DNA of 64,000 nt. Source: Pilasporangium apinafurcum. Taxonomy: Eukaryota > Oomycota > Peronosporomycetes > Pythiales > Pythiaceae. The stretch lies in assembly GCA_001600495.1 (NCBI GenBank), contig BCKE01000038.1:257780-321779 (forward strand), in the 5' to 3' direction. This document shows positions 13,043 through 21,712 of this stretch, in pieces (the stretch's first letter is position 1; every line of letters starts with the position of its first letter). The notes beneath the pieces were generated by a model. That model saw nothing but the letters and a program-made list of their open reading frames with translations. It searched no databases and was not told the origin of the DNA. Position numbers and translations under genes: made by a program.

Positions 13043-13786
13043 CTATCCTTCCTTGCCGAAGTCCTGCGTCCAGTATGTCTTGTAGTTACCACAGCCAGAG
13101 TTGCTGGCGAGTGCAAAACCGACATTCTTGACATTGGCATTGAGTATATTGGCACGGTGACCAGGCGAGTTCCACCACGAAGTCATCACTGACGAGACTG
13201 ATGTTTGTCCTGCCGCGACGTTTTCTGCTGCTTCCTGCCAGTCATAACCTTGTGCAGCCATGCGATCCCACGCCTTTGACCCGTTGCTTCCATCGTGTGT
13301 CATCGTACAGCGATTCGCCTGGTCTTGTGAGTGGCCCAATGCAGCGGCGACAATGCGGTTGTCAATGGTGAGGCTGGCTAGATTATTTGAGTTACGGTAC
13401 GCGTTCACTTTGTCGAGCATTTCCTGCGTTTCGGCACCGGTCAATCCGTTTGTCACTGTGGCTGATGGGACGTTAAAGCGTCCAATGACATACCCACAGC
13501 CAGCACCGTAGTAAGCAACCTTTGAGGCCGACGCGCCGTTCTTGAGCCAGCATGTGCCGCCGTTGTAGTTGTTCCACGTCCAGTGTGTACATGATTTGTC
13601 ATTGGCGCAGATGTCACCACAGACATCCGGGATGCCATGCACCGAGTAGGTGTCTTGACCGTAGAAATCGCAGTTGTTCTCCCACATAACGCGGCCTTGG
13701 CTACCCGTCTGGAACCCTGAGACGAATTCCATGGAGGCAGACACCATAACGGAGGCGACGAGAGCGAAAGCAGCGGAGCGTTGCAT
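13043..13786 (-). CDS. Secreted PAN/Apple + CAP (SCP/PR-1-like) protein 2
   Basis: A 247-residue intronless protein. I chose the ATG at 13786 because it opens a clear signal peptide (MQRSAAFALVASVMVSASM), whereas the extended frame upstream adds a polar stretch without one. A PAN/Apple-like module (about 27-105) and a CAP domain (about 113-247) follow. The CAP domain has HSQDQA, EAAENVA, WWNSPGHRANIL and CGNYKTYWTQDFG. It lacks the Thr-rich linker of its paralogue at 11223-12002. Over about the last 65 codons the two genes are almost identical at DNA level, but they differ much more upstream. Extracellular; function unknown, although such proteins are common in oomycete secretomes. Confidence 0.92.
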   Translation of the reverse strand: MQRSAAFALVASVMVSASMEFVSGFQTGSQGRVMWENNCDFYGQDTYSVHGIPDVCGDICANDKSCTHWTWNNYNGGTCWLKNGASASKVAYYGAGCGYVIGRFNVPSATVTNGLTGAETQEMLDKVNAYRNSNNLASLTIDNRIVAAALGHSQDQANRCTMTHDGSNGSKAWDRMAAQGYDWQEAAENVAAGQTSVSSVMTSWWNSPGHRANILNANVKNVGFALASNSGCGNYKTYWTQDFGKEG

Positions 13787-15514
13787 GGTGAACTGGTATA
13801 TATGTGTGTGGATGGGATTGAGTGATTGGTGAGGGGCAAATTGGTGACTGAACCATGCTGACAGGTATCTCGAGGTCATCAAATCTAAGTGGAAGGAATG
13901 GGAGGATAGTTGTCTCATCGTAATGGGGTTAAACAGCGAAAAGGTACGTGGTGGTTCAGTCTGCCATATGCCATTGGATCTACAAATTGTACAGAAAGAC
14001 TTGATAGGAGATTGGCCACAGTCAACAACACTGGATACTGTATCAGAGCAAAAACAGATGGTGGAAGCAACCAGCGAACATAGCAGCCTCGCTGTTCGCA
14101 GCGCACACGAAATGAAATGAGCGCCGATGGTAACATTAACAGAACCGTAGAGTATACGCTATGATTATACGGAGAGGAAGATTTGCGTTTGGTACCCACC
14201 ACATGTCAAGAAAGTAAAAGCGGCGTAGCACGAGCAACAGCGCAACACCAAAAAAAATACTCACAGCTAAAGGAGATCCCGACATACAGAACAACATTGT
14301 ATTTTGACAGTAACCACGCATTCACAACTGTAAAGACTGGTGATCCACGCATGTGGATCATGTGTGAAGCATTTTACCATAAAAGCATGGAAGCATCAAC
14401 CCGAAGTCAATGGTTTGGCATGGGCGTTCTGACTACTTCATACTATCTTATTATTGGCTAAAAATTAAACAAAACGATCAACTATTGGCCAATTTATGAG
14501 TGATAGGTCTAGTCAGTCGCCGACGTATCCATTTGCAGTCGGTGGAGATGAAAAGACTTGGATCATTTTGGTAAAATTGGGGACATGCATATGCCGCAAC
14601 CGTATCGAAAGCGCTGCCATCGTCTGTTGTTGTTCGATGGATTTTGTATGGATGTTTCAAACACTTGATCACCCATTGCTTCTGTGAAAATCTTGTTGAT
14701 CGTTGACCCTGAGGTCGGATTTCTTCGGGTTAGTTATTGATGCTCTGATCTTACATTCTTCTCTTCGTGGAACGAATTGTTGATGCTTCGATTGTAAGTA
14801 TTCACTTGCTAGAGCTAATTGTTGATGTTCCGACCATATTCTTTCTCTTCATGGCTGAGGGGGGGGGCAAGTCTTCTCCGTGTTGTAAAGATACTGGATG
14901 GAGATATGATTGAGCTTCTTCCTAGCTGATGTTAGCCATGAAAAAGGAATGCGTAGCGGTTCAGTGATGGCTCATACCGGTGTCTAATCGTCATGCTGTT
15001 CAGATAAAGTTTTGATCCTTCTGACATCCAAGGAAACATGGTTTCATTCATTGCATTCTCTTCAGCCAACCACACATGTGGATCCATGTCCAGAAAAATC
15101 AAGACATGTGGTTGATTGTTCAGAAGCCAGGCAGAATGGTTAAACCAAAGAGACCATGCAAGGACGGTCAGGAATAACTCTATGCTCCTCTAACAGACTT
15201 GAAAGCCAACGCTTTGTCAGGTATTTTTCATCTCTTGTTAACATTATACAGACCACATCGCCAATCAAATAGTGCCGATGGCCGCATAGAGAGATCTTGT
15301 TGACGTGTCACTGCTGTGACCCTCGATGCCTGTCCTGGTACGTCAGCGGGTTGTCACGACGTCAGCGTTGAAGTACAAGTCGAGGTCGCATACGTTATTT
15401 ACGAACCAAACCGTTATTTTAGGATTTATTTGCCTATTGTGTTTAAATACGGGATTGTGTCATTTTGCTCTTGGGTGCAAGTCACTCATAGCAAGTTGTA
15501 CGAAACGCGTGAAG
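13787..15514. other. Long intergenic region upstream of the FAR fusion gene
   Basis: About 1.7 kb with no supportable gene. It holds small palindromes (for example GATCCAC-GCAT-GTGGATC near 14341), a run of nine or so G residues near 14861, and a degenerate short tandem repeat at about 14731-14860. Promoters of the divergent flanking genes are expected here. Confidence 0.6.
14731..14860. repeat. Three degenerate tandem units of about 43 bp
   Basis: Units starting near 14731, 14774 and 14816 each begin with TTATTGATG/TTGTTGATG and continue with a diverged body; the first and third share TTCT-TCTCTTC-TGG. The period is about 43 bp. Function unknown. Confidence 0.5.
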
Positions 15515-18500
15515 ATGGAGGAGGTTTACGCAGGAAAATGCCTCTTTCTTACAGGTGCCACGGGCTTTCTCGGCAAAGTAAGACACTCTGCTTTACCTCT
15601 TCTGTAATTCTGCAATCTCTGTCAGGTGTTTTTTTTCACACCGCTGCGTGGGTTTTGATTAGGCGGTGGTAGAGAAACTCTTGCGCAGTTCCCCAAACAT
15701 CCAACAGGTGCAACACAGTGATTGTTTATTTCTTCCTTCGATAGTCTCGTTCATCACATATGTGTCGCTTATGATCGACGTAGATTTTTGTGCTGATTCG
15801 ATCACGCAAGGGTGTGCAGCCAGCAGTACGGTTGCAGAATGAAATCATCAACAGGTCTGGATTGCTCAATTGCTCCATCATATTTTTTAGATAGAGCCCT
15901 ATGGGCAACTTCACCACTCGCTCTTTGTATTTGTTTTATCGTACATGTTTGCTGATGATTAAAGCCCAATATTTGACCGCCTACGCCGCGAAAGAGGAAA
16001 GGACTTTGAGGCGTTTGCGGCATCTAAACTTTACCCAGTCGCGGGTGATGTGACGTCTCCTGGTCTGGGATTAAGCGATGAAGACGCACGATTACTAAGG
16101 GATCATGTGCAGATCACCATCCATTCTGCAGCGACAGTGCAGTTTAATGAACCGCTTGAAGTGGCTGTTGAGGTACGTGCATAATCTAGTGCTTCATTGG
16201 GTATTAACCGATTTAATGACTTATTTGGTTAAATAGATGAACTGCATCGGCGCACTGAACACCTTAGATTTCGTCCAGAGCTGTCCGCATGTGCTATGCC
16301 ACTTGCATGTCTCCACTGCCTATGTGAATAGCAACCTGCGTACGCTGCACATCAAAGAAGAGCTCTATCCGTTGGATTTCAATGCGCGCGAGGCCATCGA
16401 CGCGGTCATTAACGCTTCTCCAAGTGAACTGGAGCGTTTGAGTGTGAACCTCATGGGTACGTACCCCAATACATACGCACTCACCAAGTCCATGACGGAG
16501 CATCTACTCGTCCAGACGCTTCGTGAATCAACCACCAAGCCATTGCCGCTTGTTATTTACCGGCCAACCATTATCGGTGCGTCTTGGAAAGAGCCTGTGC
16601 CTGGGTGGGTCGACCAAATCGCGGGTGCAGGGGCTATTTTCTTAGCCGCTGGCATGGGTGTACTCACCATGCTGCCTGGTGACCCACGCAACATCGCTGA
16701 TCTTGTGCCTGTAGACCTTGCAGTCAACAGTTTGCTGCTCTCGATCTGCACGAAGATTAAGATGAGCGGACCACCTAGCCATCATCAGCATCAGCAGTTT
16801 CAAACACCGCCATTGATCGTGCATTGTGGCACTTCCGACCCACGTCAGAATCCTTTAAGGTGGCGAGTACCTGTGGGGCTTGTGCCTGAGTACTTCAGGA
16901 AGAATCCACCCGTAAAGGGTCTATTTCCAGCGAAATTCCATATGATTCCGACGCATCAGCACTTCCAGACCAAATGGTTTTTTTCCTATGCATTGCCATC
17001 GTCTGTGTACTCAACTGTGGCCAACAAGAGCGGCCATCCACATCATGTGAAGCAGGCTGCCAGGCTCTGGCAGCTTACATGGCGCGCCCGTACTCTTGTC
17101 GAGCTGTTTAAACCATTTACAGAGAACCAATGGATCTTTGTGGCTGATTCGAATGAACTGCTCAAGTCATATGCCACGAACGACTGGTGGCTCGACAGCC
17201 ACCAAATCGTCTGGGAACGATATGTCATCAATTTCTGCGTCGGGTTAAAGAAGTACATGCTCCATGAAGACGTCATCGACGTCGACATCGAAGGCGTCGA
17301 ACAGACGCAGCTTGCGCTCAGCACGGGGCGAATGTTGGCCTGGGACCCAGATCACCACGCCATCTCGTTTCCTGGACTATTATCTGATGTTTCATGGGCT
17401 TATACCTCAAGTCGCAAACCTGGATACACCAAGTCTGGATTGTTGGGACGATTTATGGGGCTCACGGGCTGGAAAGAAGGGATGAATCACGAAGCCAGTC
17501 ATGTGCCTCGCCAACACGTGGAATCTATTGGCTCCATGCGTAATAGCATCTTAGAGTCTCAGGCAGTTCGTGAAGCCATCGCTACGAAAGCAGAAGAACT
17601 GAGTATTGTAGTAGACGACGTGGAAAAAGAAACCGCGGCCATTTTAGACAAAATGACGGCGCAGATGGACTACCGATCGGTTCGCAAATTTGGATGGCTG
17701 CTACGAAAAGTTTGCCGACGCATGTACGATCAGATTCATGTGGATGAGAAAGGATTGATGCACATCCGCGAGATCCTGGGCAATCGCAAAGGCAGTGTCG
17801 TGCTGGTGCCGACACACCGATCGTATATTGATTTTCTCCTTATGAGCTACGTCTTCTTTGCGTACAATATCCCGGTGCCATACATCGCCGCGGGAGAAGA
17901 CTTCATGCACATGGGCTACTTGACCAAGATTTTTCGAGAATCAGGCGCGTACTTCATTCGTCGGTCGTTCAGTGATGACCCACTTTATACAGCTGTGTTT
18001 CGCGAATACACGCAAGTATGTTTTGGTGGTATGCATATGCTTAGTTACTTGATGGAGTAAACTAACGTGTTGGGCAATGTGTGTGCTGGCAGTATTTGGT
18101 GTCCAAGGGCCATACTGTCGAGTTCTTCATTGAAGGTTCACGCAGTCGCAGTGGGAAGCAGTTGCATCCAAAATTTGGCATCTTGAGCACCGTCGTCGAC
18201 TGCTTCCTTGCAGAAAAAGTGGACAATGTACGTATTTTATCAGTCGATTCGGCCTTTGCATCAACTTGAACTCTCTTCGGTGTTGTGGTAGCTTTATATT
18301 GTGCCGGTGACAATCGATTACGAGAAGCCTTTGGAAGTGCTTTTGCATCAAAATGAAGTGCTTGGTGAAGGCAAAATCCGAGAGGTAAATGAATGATTGA
18401 TACTTTTTCGTCTTTTGCCATTCCGCCTAATCATGTGCTGGTTGTGATTATTTGTAGTCGCTGGGTGCGCTAGTCAAGTCTGTTCCTGTACTGCGCAAGA

Positions 18501-19904
18501 AATTTGGCTCGATCTCGGTGCAATTTGGCGATCCAATCGATCTGAAAGACTATGTTGCAACTCAATTGGACATCCACGCGGATCAATTTATCTCCAGTGC
18601 AACACTGGTGGAAAATTTGGCCTATGAAATCACCGACGCACTCATCACACGTGCTACCTGCACCATGTCACATGTGGTCGCGACAATTTTGCTCATGTAT
18701 CGCCACGGTATTTCGAAGAAAGAACTCGTACAACAGTCGAATTGGCTTCGCATGGAGATCTTGAAGCGCGGAGGCCGAGTCATGGGTACACAAGGACGAT
18801 CACCTGCGATTGTGGTGGAGCATGCACTCGAGATGCTGCAAGAACTTGTCTGTACGACCAGAAGGAAAGGCCACGTCGAGCCAGCCATCACCAGCGTACG
18901 AAACTTTTATATATTCTCGTTGGTATAGATACATTGTCTAAACTTATACTTTTGTTTCTTTTCTGATGAGATAGAGAGAGCAATACCCAAATATGATTGG
19001 CTTGGGCTATTACCGCAACAAGATCCTGCACTGGTTCAACCGTGAAGGCGTGCTGGCATGTGCCTACCACGCCTTGGACGTCTTCAATGCCAGTGACAAC
19101 AGCACAACTAGCAGCAATTCCGCTGGTGTGGATGCGACGGAGCTGCTCGACGGCGCGGGCTTCTTGCATGAGATGCTCATGATGGAGTTTGTGCGGAAGG
19201 ATTGCAAGAACGACCGTCAGGAACTGACGTTGGCACTGCAGCAGCTGGAGGCGCAGCAAACGCTGGAACGCAACGCTGCGTCCAAACTCTGCGTGGGCAG
19301 CACAGGGCAGCCGCTCGTATCGCTGCTGTGCGCTGTCATTTGGCCATTCATCGACAGTTACTGGGTAGCGATCACGAGTCTGTTTGCGTTGCGAGCTCAT
19401 GTAGAGATCTCGCTGGAGGATCTGCTCAAACGCATCCAGTGGCTCGCCGAGACGGTCCGTCTTTCTATGATGCGCATTGCTAGTTGGTTTGCAACATAAT
19501 ATTAACAGTGTACTGTGTTTTGTGTTATCAGATGTATCATGAAAAACTTATCAGCTTCTACGAATCATGCTCATTGGAGACACTGCAGAACGCAATTACG
19601 CTGCTGGAACACTGGAACGTCATCGAACGCCACGCCAAGATGCGCAAACGCAGGACAGGACCAACCTTGGTATGTGGAGACACTTGCAACTACTGGCATA
19701 AAAAATACTCACCTGATTGTTCTATCTTTGCTATAGATTCGCTTGACTCCGCAATACGAACAGGAAAACGAGTTGGAGTTGCTGGCGCTGCGTGTGGCCA
19801 AATTCCGCAAGCTGCCGCATGGCACGATACCCACTACGGGGCTTACGAGCTGCCACCGTGAGAGTCACCTCATCGCCATGCTCCCTGCGCTTTCCAAGAT
19901 GTAG
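15515..19904 (+). CDS. Fatty acyl-CoA reductase / DHAP-type acyltransferase fusion
   Basis: Eleven exons: 15515-15577, 15663-15707, 15784-15854, 15965-16172, 16237-18015, 18093-18227, 18292-18384, 18458-18895, 18975-19454, 19532-19669 and 19737-19904, giving 1205 residues with consistent phases. The N-terminal half is a fatty acyl-CoA reductase: nucleotide-binding GATGFLG at 14-20, the YALTK catalytic pair (Tyr209, Lys213), and a FAR C-terminal region. The second half is a glycerol-3-phosphate/DHAP acyltransferase: HRSYID (His656, Asp661), the FIRR motif near 704 and EGSRSR (736-741). The last three residues are SKM, a PTS1-type peroxisomal signal. Such a protein could make fatty alcohol and acyl-DHAP, the two precursors of ether lipids. 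It ends 164 bp from the convergent 6-phosphogluconate dehydrogenase gene. Confidence 0.9.
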
Positions 19905-20068: not shown

Positions 20069-21538
20069 TTATAGGTTGCCGCGAGTGCGTTCTTCAATGT
20101 TGCCAATGCTGTGATGCGCGTCAGTCCATTCGCAGTGGAAGAAACCTTCGCGGTCCGTGCGCTGGTACGTGTGGCCACCGAAGAAATCACGTTGTGCCTG
20201 CGTCAGGTTCGCTGGCAAACGTTCACGGCGGAACGAGTCAAAGTAGTTGAGCGAGGCCGAGAAACTAGGCGTTGGGATACCGCTTGCGACCGCCAACGAC
20301 ACGACACGGCGCCACGAGTATTGTCGTGCGTTCAATTCTTGCGAGAAATCTGGATCCACCAACAACGAGATGAGACTTGGCTCCTTGCGATATGCCTGGA
20401 CGATGCGATCCAAGAACACGGCGCGAATGATGCAACCGCCCTTCCAGATACGCGCGCATTCACCCAAGTCGACGTTCCAGCCCATTTGCACGCCGGCTTC
20501 ACGGATCAAGTTCAATCCTTGCGCGTAACTGGTGATCTTGGATGCATAAAGCGCCTGGCGGACATCATCGATCAATTGCTGCTTGTCAACGGCAGGGATT
20601 TCAGCTGGGCCGTTAAGGATCTTGGACGCGTAGACACGTTCAGACTTGCGGGCGCTCAAGTAACGCGAGTCGAGCGAGGCTGTGATGGTAGGTGCAGCGA
20701 TGGAGCGTTCCGCAGCTTCCTGAACCGTCCAGCGACCGGTACCCTTCATGCCGGTCTGGTCCAAGATCTTGTCTACCAAGTAGCCATCGTCAGTCAAATC
20801 ATCCTTCTTGCCAAAGATGCTGGCTGTAATCTCAATCAAGAACGATTCCAACTCGCCCTTGTTCCACTCATCAAAGACTTGGGCCAATTCAGCGTTGGTC
20901 AAACCGCCAGCAATCTTGAGAATGTCATAAGCTTCGGCGATCAATTGCATATCACCGTATTCAATACCGTTGTGCACCATCTTGACATAGTTGCCACTGC
21001 CAATGGGGCCCAAGTACGTCGTGCACGGACCGTCATCGACCTGCGCAGCGCACTTGACCAAGATTGGTTCCAGGGCATCAAACGCTTCCTTCGGGCCACC
21101 AGGCATGAGCGAAGGACCATTGCGTGCACCTTCTTCACCACCAGAGATACCCATACCAACGAAATGGATGCCCTTAGGCTCCAATTCGGCCGCACGACGC
21201 ACACTGTTTGGGAACCATTCGTTACCACCATCGACGATGATGTCACCCGGTTCCATGTATTGCGCAAGCGCTTCGATCGTGGCATCAACGGGCTTGCCGG
21301 CTTGCACCAAGATGATGACCTTGCGAGGCTTGGAGAGCGAATAGACAAACTCACCAACGTCCTTGTATCCCTTTAGTGGGAGGTTTCCTTCGGCAATGGC
21401 GCGCTGCGCCGTGGCGTCCACCTTATCAGGCGAGCGGTTGCAAACCGAGACACTGAAGCCGTGGGAGGCCATGTTGAGAGCAAAGTTTTGGCCCATGACG
21501 GCCAGACCGTAGAGTCCAACGTCCGCGAGGTTCGACAT
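20069..21538 (-). CDS. 6-phosphogluconate dehydrogenase, decarboxylating
   Basis: A 489-residue intronless enzyme of the oxidative pentose phosphate pathway: 6-phosphogluconate + NADP to ribulose 5-phosphate, CO2 and NADPH. Seen: the N-terminal Rossmann motif GLYGLAVMG at 8-16, the substrate-binding VDGGNEWFPN, GISGGEEGARNGPSLMPGG, and GSGNYVKMVHNGIEYGDM with the catalytic Lys; then the all-helical C-terminal domain with TGRWTVQEA and the closing HTYQRTDREGFFHCEW. Length is that of the usual short bacterial/eukaryotic form. I chose the ATG at 21538; the frame extends 11 codons upstream without another ATG. Cytosolic by lack of a targeting peptide. The NADPH could feed the lipid enzymes nearby, but that is biochemistry, not evidence from position. 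Confidence 0.97.
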   Translation of the reverse strand: MSNLADVGLYGLAVMGQNFALNMASHGFSVSVCNRSPDKVDATAQRAIAEGNLPLKGYKDVGEFVYSLSKPRKVIILVQAGKPVDATIEALAQYMEPGDIIVDGGNEWFPNSVRRAAELEPKGIHFVGMGISGGEEGARNGPSLMPGGPKEAFDALEPILVKCAAQVDDGPCTTYLGPIGSGNYVKMVHNGIEYGDMQLIAEAYDILKIAGGLTNAELAQVFDEWNKGELESFLIEITASIFGKKDDLTDDGYLVDKILDQTGMKGTGRWTVQEAAERSIAAPTITASLDSRYLSARKSERVYASKILNGPAEIPAVDKQQLIDDVRQALYASKITSYAQGLNLIREAGVQMGWNVDLGECARIWKGGCIIRAVFLDRIVQAYRKEPSLISLLVDPDFSQELNARQYSWRRVVSLAVASGIPTPSFSASLNYFDSFRRERLPANLTQAQRDFFGGHTYQRTDREGFFHCEWTDAHHSIGNIEERTRGNL

Positions 21539-21712
21539 GTTATTGAATAGAGAAGAGCTGTGACGAAGCAAAGAGCGTGAAGAAGCGCGTAGCAGAAGTT
21601 GAGCCGCGATGATCTGGAGGCCTCAAATTCCGAAATGACTTTGCGCAACTATGCCCAAGAAGATCTGCTCCCCCTAATTTTGAAGAGCTCCCTCTCTAAA
21701 GCGATGCATCAA

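Follow-up and report, generated by a model that had tools for sequence, protein, structure and literature searches.

The 64,000-nucleotide stretch of Pilasporangium apinafurcum DNA analysed here (contig BCKE01000038.1; hereafter the window) carries a gene for a single protein of 1205 amino acids, in which an N-terminal fatty acyl-CoA reductase (FAR) is continuous with a C-terminal acyltransferase of the kind that acts on dihydroxyacetone phosphate (DHAP), and which ends in the tripeptide SKM. Judged by its sequence, this protein is the oomycete orthologue of FARAT, the fused FAR-DHAP acyltransferase (DHAPAT) already known from other protists, including the related oomycete Phytophthora infestans (PMC3143110), and we hold with high confidence that the gene encodes a two-enzyme protein of the peroxisome, which would provide AGPS with its two substrates, fatty alcohol and acyl-DHAP. 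The SKM tail would be recognised by PEX5, the receptor for type 1 peroxisomal targeting signals (PTS1), leading to import of FARAT into the peroxisome. The N-terminal domain would use NADPH to convert long-chain acyl-CoA to fatty alcohol, while the C-terminal domain, which is of the animal GNPAT type, would move an acyl group from acyl-CoA to DHAP to give 1-acyl-DHAP. The AGPS encoded at another locus of the genome would then exchange acyl for alcohol to yield alkyl-DHAP, the first ether lipid, with reduction and completion to follow (partly in the endoplasmic reticulum in Dictyostelium). Substrate channelling between the FAR and acyltransferase domains is possible.

The two halves are evident from domain searches, motifs and predicted structure. 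Pfam matches cover NAD_binding_4 (PF07993; residues 12–294, 217.6 bits), Acyltransferase (PF01553; residues 646–775, 77.5 bits) and GPAT_C (PF19277; residues 788–1137, 219.4 bits). The TGxTGF and YxxTK motifs are both present in the N-terminal half, and the HxxxxD and EGxRSR motifs of the acyltransferase are found as PTHRSYIDFL and FFIEGSRSRSGK. The AlphaFold2 structure predicted for P0002, the orthologue from Globisporangium (mean pLDDT 86.0, pTM 0.85), is matched by Foldseek to both human GPAT1 (TMt 0.82) and the rice FAR DPW (TMt 0.80). The positions of the gene and its parts are collected in the table.

Features of the FARAT gene, with positions in the window.
Feature	Position	Strand	Basis
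FARAT gene, fatty acyl-CoA reductase + DHAP acyltransferase	15515..19904	+	splice model, Pfam, junctions compared with oomycete relatives
FARAT exons 1-4	15515-15577, 15663-15707, 15784-15854, 15965-16172	+	splice model
FARAT exon 5, 1779 nt, holds the FAR-to-acyltransferase join in open frame	16237-18015	+	ORF list, splice model
FARAT exons 6-8	18093-18227, 18292-18384, 18458-18895	+	splice model
FARAT exons 9-11	18975-19454, 19532-19669, 19737-19904	+	splice model
FAR NAD(P)-binding domain, residues 12-294, TGATGFLGK + YALTK, across introns 1-4	15548..16731	+	Pfam, motifs
FAR C-terminal Sterile domain, residues 401-473, just under Pfam cut-off	17050..17268	+	Pfam
Acyltransferase domain, residues 646-775, PTHRSYIDFL, FIRR, FIEGSRSRSGK, across introns 5-6	17785..18315	+	Pfam, motifs
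GPAT/DHAPAT C-terminal region, residues 788-1137, across introns 7-9	18352..19630	+	Pfam
SKM codons + stop, PTS1-type tail	19893..19904	+	splice model; PTS1-like ends in relatives

Were the acyltransferase half to use glycerol-3-phosphate, as a GPAT does, the protein would feed ordinary glycerolipids and not ether lipids. The Pfam models take in both GPAT and DHAPAT, and GPAT1 is the best match among solved structures, but a tree of 40 sequences places the window protein elsewhere. In this tree, 25 FARAT acyltransferases and 6 animal GNPATs branch together against 9 GPAT sequences (SH-aLRT 98.8), the latter being fungal, bacterial, unnamed and from this genome, with vertebrate GPAT1 left out and many of the 'fungal-type' or 'bacterial' labels assigned from named neighbours plus our own reading. 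The window protein thus sits with animal GNPAT and with none of the GPAT groups used. Its motif I, PTHRSYIDFL, fits the pattern P[TSC]HRSY[ILVM]DFL of the five animal GNPATs printed, whereas a separate GPAT in the same genome (L014, contig C17; reading frame of at least 916 amino acids, no introns in the matched part) reads PTHKTHLDYL. The fusion of this half to a FAR, its PTS1-type tail and the existence of that separate GPAT all argue in the same direction, and PMC7375469 describes DHAP as the substrate of the Dictyostelium enzyme. We therefore regard use of glycerol-3-phosphate as very unlikely. By eye, L014 also shows an IQ-motif-like stretch, RIQQRYRLYQQK, near the edge of the locus.

The C-terminal tail is a conserved property of the family. 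A PTS1-like tripeptide, [SAPCGT][KRH][LMI], ends 54 of the 55 near-full-length fusions, the window protein included (FAR coverage at least 0.7 and acyltransferase coverage at least 0.8; the exception is P0039), and on this basis a chance occurrence of SKM was rejected, though the relatives are not independent of one another. All 16 named oomycete fusions checked end PxL[SA][KR][MIL] after a variable stretch, the tripeptides among them being SRM, SKM, SKI, SRL, AKM, SKL and AKL. The preliminary description of this DNA, made from the sequence alone, had said that disappearance of SKM from the genomes of relatives would refute its reading; the exact tripeptide proves not to be universal, but a PTS1-like one is kept in each of these 16 fusions. 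In the P0002 model, residues 1174–1190 and 1198–1200 fall below pLDDT 50, as would suit a free tail. Among FAR-only proteins, 0 of 34 have a PTS1-like end, a count that is uninformative on ordinary FARs of about 500 amino acids, which the length filter of the whole-protein search (0.55–1.75 times 1205 amino acids) excluded. SKM is a working signal in other organisms: the DHAPAT of Leishmania, a glycosomal enzyme, has SKM at its C-terminus (PMC3219689), and a Guillardia protein ending in SKM was peroxisomal when placed in the diatom Phaeodactylum (PMC9244630). According to the same source, Guillardia protein 135385, named 'fatty acyl-CoA reductase1-like', is peroxisomal and has SRL at its end; it might be an unrecognised FARAT.

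The preliminary description had treated absence of AGPS from the species as a reason to doubt an ether-lipid role, and AGPS was duly found in the same genome (L011, contig C21), matching mammalian AGPS (PDB 4bby) with E 1.1e-178 and the Dictyostelium AGPS structure 2uuu with E 2.5e-89. Near its N-terminus lies the nonapeptide RMRAIVAHI, resembling a type 2 peroxisomal targeting signal (PTS2), at a place where many vertebrate sequences have RLRVLSGHL or a close form. The pattern R[ML]x5[HQ][ILV] occurs within the first 40 residues of 28 of 31 named oomycete AGPS proteins (22 of 25 from Peronosporales and Pythiales and 6 of 6 from Saprolegniales), the other three having odd or cut N-termini, and a PTS1-like end is found in none of the 31. 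The genome also yields a match to the PEX14_N domain (E 9.1e-13). Atypical PTS2 sequences in which position 2 is M and position 9 either M or V have been noted for stramenopiles (PMC7710942), and PMC3178647 records both PEX7 and PTS2 cargo for P. infestans.

Some points count against the proposed role. The Sterile domain of the FAR half scores 34.9 bits against a Pfam cut-off of 35.4, and the AGPS nonapeptide deviates from the usual PTS2 at positions 2 (M) and 9 (I). PF10520 (the vinyl-ether/plasmalogen desaturase) gave no match in the genome; since the controls gave none either, the search does not establish absence. Separately, our search of the open literature turned up no account of oomycete ether lipids. 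In favour of the role, a second FAR was not found among the eight PF07993 matches in the genome: two belong to the FARAT gene, and the remaining six were judged by eye to be an adenylation-reductase protein and five epimerase-like ones, but a FAR with many small exons could escape such a search.

FARs elsewhere serve wax synthesis, and it could be supposed that the FAR half makes alcohols chiefly for wax esters rather than for ether lipids. We find this hard to credit given the presence of AGPS, the failure to find a second FAR in the search just described and the joint inheritance of the FAR and acyltransferase halves (see below).

The coding sequence of 3618 nt is in frame throughout, its last codons are TCC AAG ATG TAG, and all ten introns are bounded by GT...AG and measure 64–110 nt. 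A single unbroken open reading frame (16237–18060, 607 codons) contains the YALTK motif of the FAR together with HRSYID and FIRR of the acyltransferase, and since the join therefore falls within one uninterrupted 1779-nt exon the fusion is independent of the intron calls. In a comparison with eight oomycete relatives, no indel unique to the window protein is seen at exon junctions 1–9 against most of the sequences; stray gaps at 1, 5 and 6 stem from a single sequence, P0013, and a gap at junction 8 is common to all those printed. Junction 10, where a variable linker ends, is the least constrained. Oomycete database proteins with one half only do exist (P0121 and P0122), but the chance that two adjacent genes for a FAR and a GPAT/DHAPAT were wrongly merged is negligible, this artefact being rejected on the strength of the stop-free junction exon and of relatives, among them full-length oomycete orthologues matching in domain order and length and assembled transcripts of other protists carrying both halves (P0044 from mmetsp; P0052 and P0056 from eukprot). 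The preliminary description had proposed a full FAR continuous with a full acyltransferase, encoded by 11 exons in phase and closing on a PTS1-type SKM, and each of these elements stands on the domains, frame and tail conservation given above.

In the whole-protein search, several oomycete proteins matched along 100% of the query at E 0.0, so that the observation is not due to chance. Matches of this coverage, 56–71% identical, came from Phytophthora, Peronospora, Plasmopara, Globisporangium, Pythium, Lagenidium, Thraustotheca and Aphanomyces, with full-length identity of 65–71% to Phytophthora, Globisporangium, Pythium and relatives and of 56–57% in Saprolegniales; among the matches listed from three homologue searches (the best 120 of 228, 120 of 624 and 120 of 3624), identity did not exceed 78%, which suggests that the protein set lacks this genus. 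The search of relatives for such fusions that had been suggested at the outset thus recovered full-length orthologues in many oomycetes. The architecture is also seen in metagenome proteins and, truncated, in the ciliate Stentor. Joining of FAR and DHAPAT in a single protist chain is described in PMC13256971, and a survey of 2011 lists the fusion in Tetrahymena, Paramecium, Dictyostelium, Polysphondylium, P. infestans and Naegleria (PMC3143110). A standalone DHAPAT-like protein of 717 amino acids from Willaertia magna (P0149) ends in SKL and forms a long branch among the FARATs; given the listing of Naegleria in that survey, it is possible that its FAR half was lost or that the gene model is broken.

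Comparison with characterised systems places the window protein close to known FARATs. The P. infestans fusion printed in 2011 (XP_002902570; PMC3143110) is probably our P0001, which shares the domain order, has 1218 amino acids, is 71% identical over 100% of the query and has a PTS1-like end, SRM in place of SKM. As described in PMC7375469, the Dictyostelium FARAT (fatA, DDB0305750) likewise has an N-terminal FAR and a C-terminal acyltransferase in a single chain of 1279 amino acids ending in the PTS1 SKL; it differs in being amoebozoan, in its poly-Asn blocks and in having its peroxisomal location and ether-lipid role established by experiment, the mutants retaining 13% of the ether storage lipid. 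The preliminary description mentioned a related fused enzyme in Dictyostelium, but its claims of novelty for the presence of the fusion here and for the peroxisomal tail are overtaken by the P. infestans and Dictyostelium proteins respectively. The Tetrahymena TtFARAT/ART1 (EAS00429) is, by description, a ciliate FAR-DHAPAT fusion (PMC3143110), reported in 2014 as a bifunctional enzyme forming both precursors (as described in PMC7375469); by analogy, and with its motifs intact, the window protein probably has both activities. Leishmania LmDAT resembles it as a large glycosomal DHAPAT ending in SKM, but carries instead a long N-terminal extension without similarity to known proteins, its FAR being a separate enzyme (PMC3219689). 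The acyltransferase half groups with animal GNPAT, yet the animal arrangement consists of two separate proteins. Animal FAR1 and GNPAT catalyse the two FARAT reactions; FAR1 is membrane-anchored, whereas in the window protein a single PTS1 would serve both domains.

The origin of the fusion was examined in trees of sequences hand-picked from the matches (71 in an early tree, 56 in the FAR tree and 39 in the comparison of halves, besides the 40 above), with no amoebozoan knowingly among them. When the FAR-half and acyltransferase-half trees of 39 fusions are compared, 26 of 36 splits are common to both (permuted mean 0.2, maximum 3), and the two halves have therefore been inherited together, although congruent halves alone do not prove a single fusion and several fusions are compatible with the result. 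A linker motif, D..WA[YF], found in 65 of the 95 proteins with matches to both profile models, in 0 of 40 FAR-only and in 1 of 88 acyltransferase-only proteins, is suggestive of a single event; with 30 of the 95 lacking it, it was not used as proof. In the FAR tree, arthropod FARs, P0066-P0067-P0069 and five short FAR-acyltransferase proteins stand beside the main FARAT sets at a base that is unresolved. The best acyltransferase tree puts the 25 FARAT sequences on one side and the animals outside (support 86), and two alternatives that nest animal GNPAT within FARAT, from sets named after the 71-sequence tree had been seen, are not rejected (p-AU 0.259 and 0.121).

The survey of 2011 left 'multiple evolutionary gains or losses' open (PMC3143110). 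We tentatively raise the possibility, which we think somewhat less probable than its alternatives taken together, that a single event near the root of the eukaryotes produced a PTS1-tagged, peroxisomal FAR-GNPAT fusion, which was kept by oomycetes, ciliates, Dictyostelium and Naegleria, that animal FAR1 and GNPAT were derived from it by splitting, and that a Massospora fusion retains it with a decayed acyltransferase. The shared splits, the grouping of animal GNPAT with FARAT and the profile scores of the Massospora cicadina protein (P0092) are consistent with such a history; the FARAT-only side of the acyltransferase tree, the base of the FAR tree and the compatibility of several fusions are against it or neutral. 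For the acyltransferase part of P0092, the FARAT profile gives 74.3 bits, compared with 69.5 for the animal GNPAT profile and 25.9 for that of fungal-type GPAT.

P0092 joins a fungal FAR to a GNPAT-like region in which H-x4-D is kept (HHSNLD) and the EGxRSR block is absent. Five proteins of 787–896 amino acids (P0086, P0089, P0091, P0096 and P0103) combine a FAR with a weak, short acyltransferase match (coverage 0.28–0.35) and form one group in the FAR tree (98); they perhaps represent a separate, possibly bacterial, FAR-acyltransferase fusion. Next to the FARAT gene, the open reading frames at 20069–21571 and 13043–13918, both on the minus strand, read by eye as a 6-phosphogluconate dehydrogenase and a CAP/SCP-type protein, respectively, with no evident link to ether lipids.

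With a PTS1-bearing FARAT and an AGPS with an unusual PTS2-like signal, this oomycete appears to hold the front end of peroxisomal ether-lipid synthesis. The broad spread of the fusion makes the origin of the separate animal FAR1 and GNPAT testable and, should a single origin be correct, it is the animal arrangement, and not the protist fusion, that would be the derived state.

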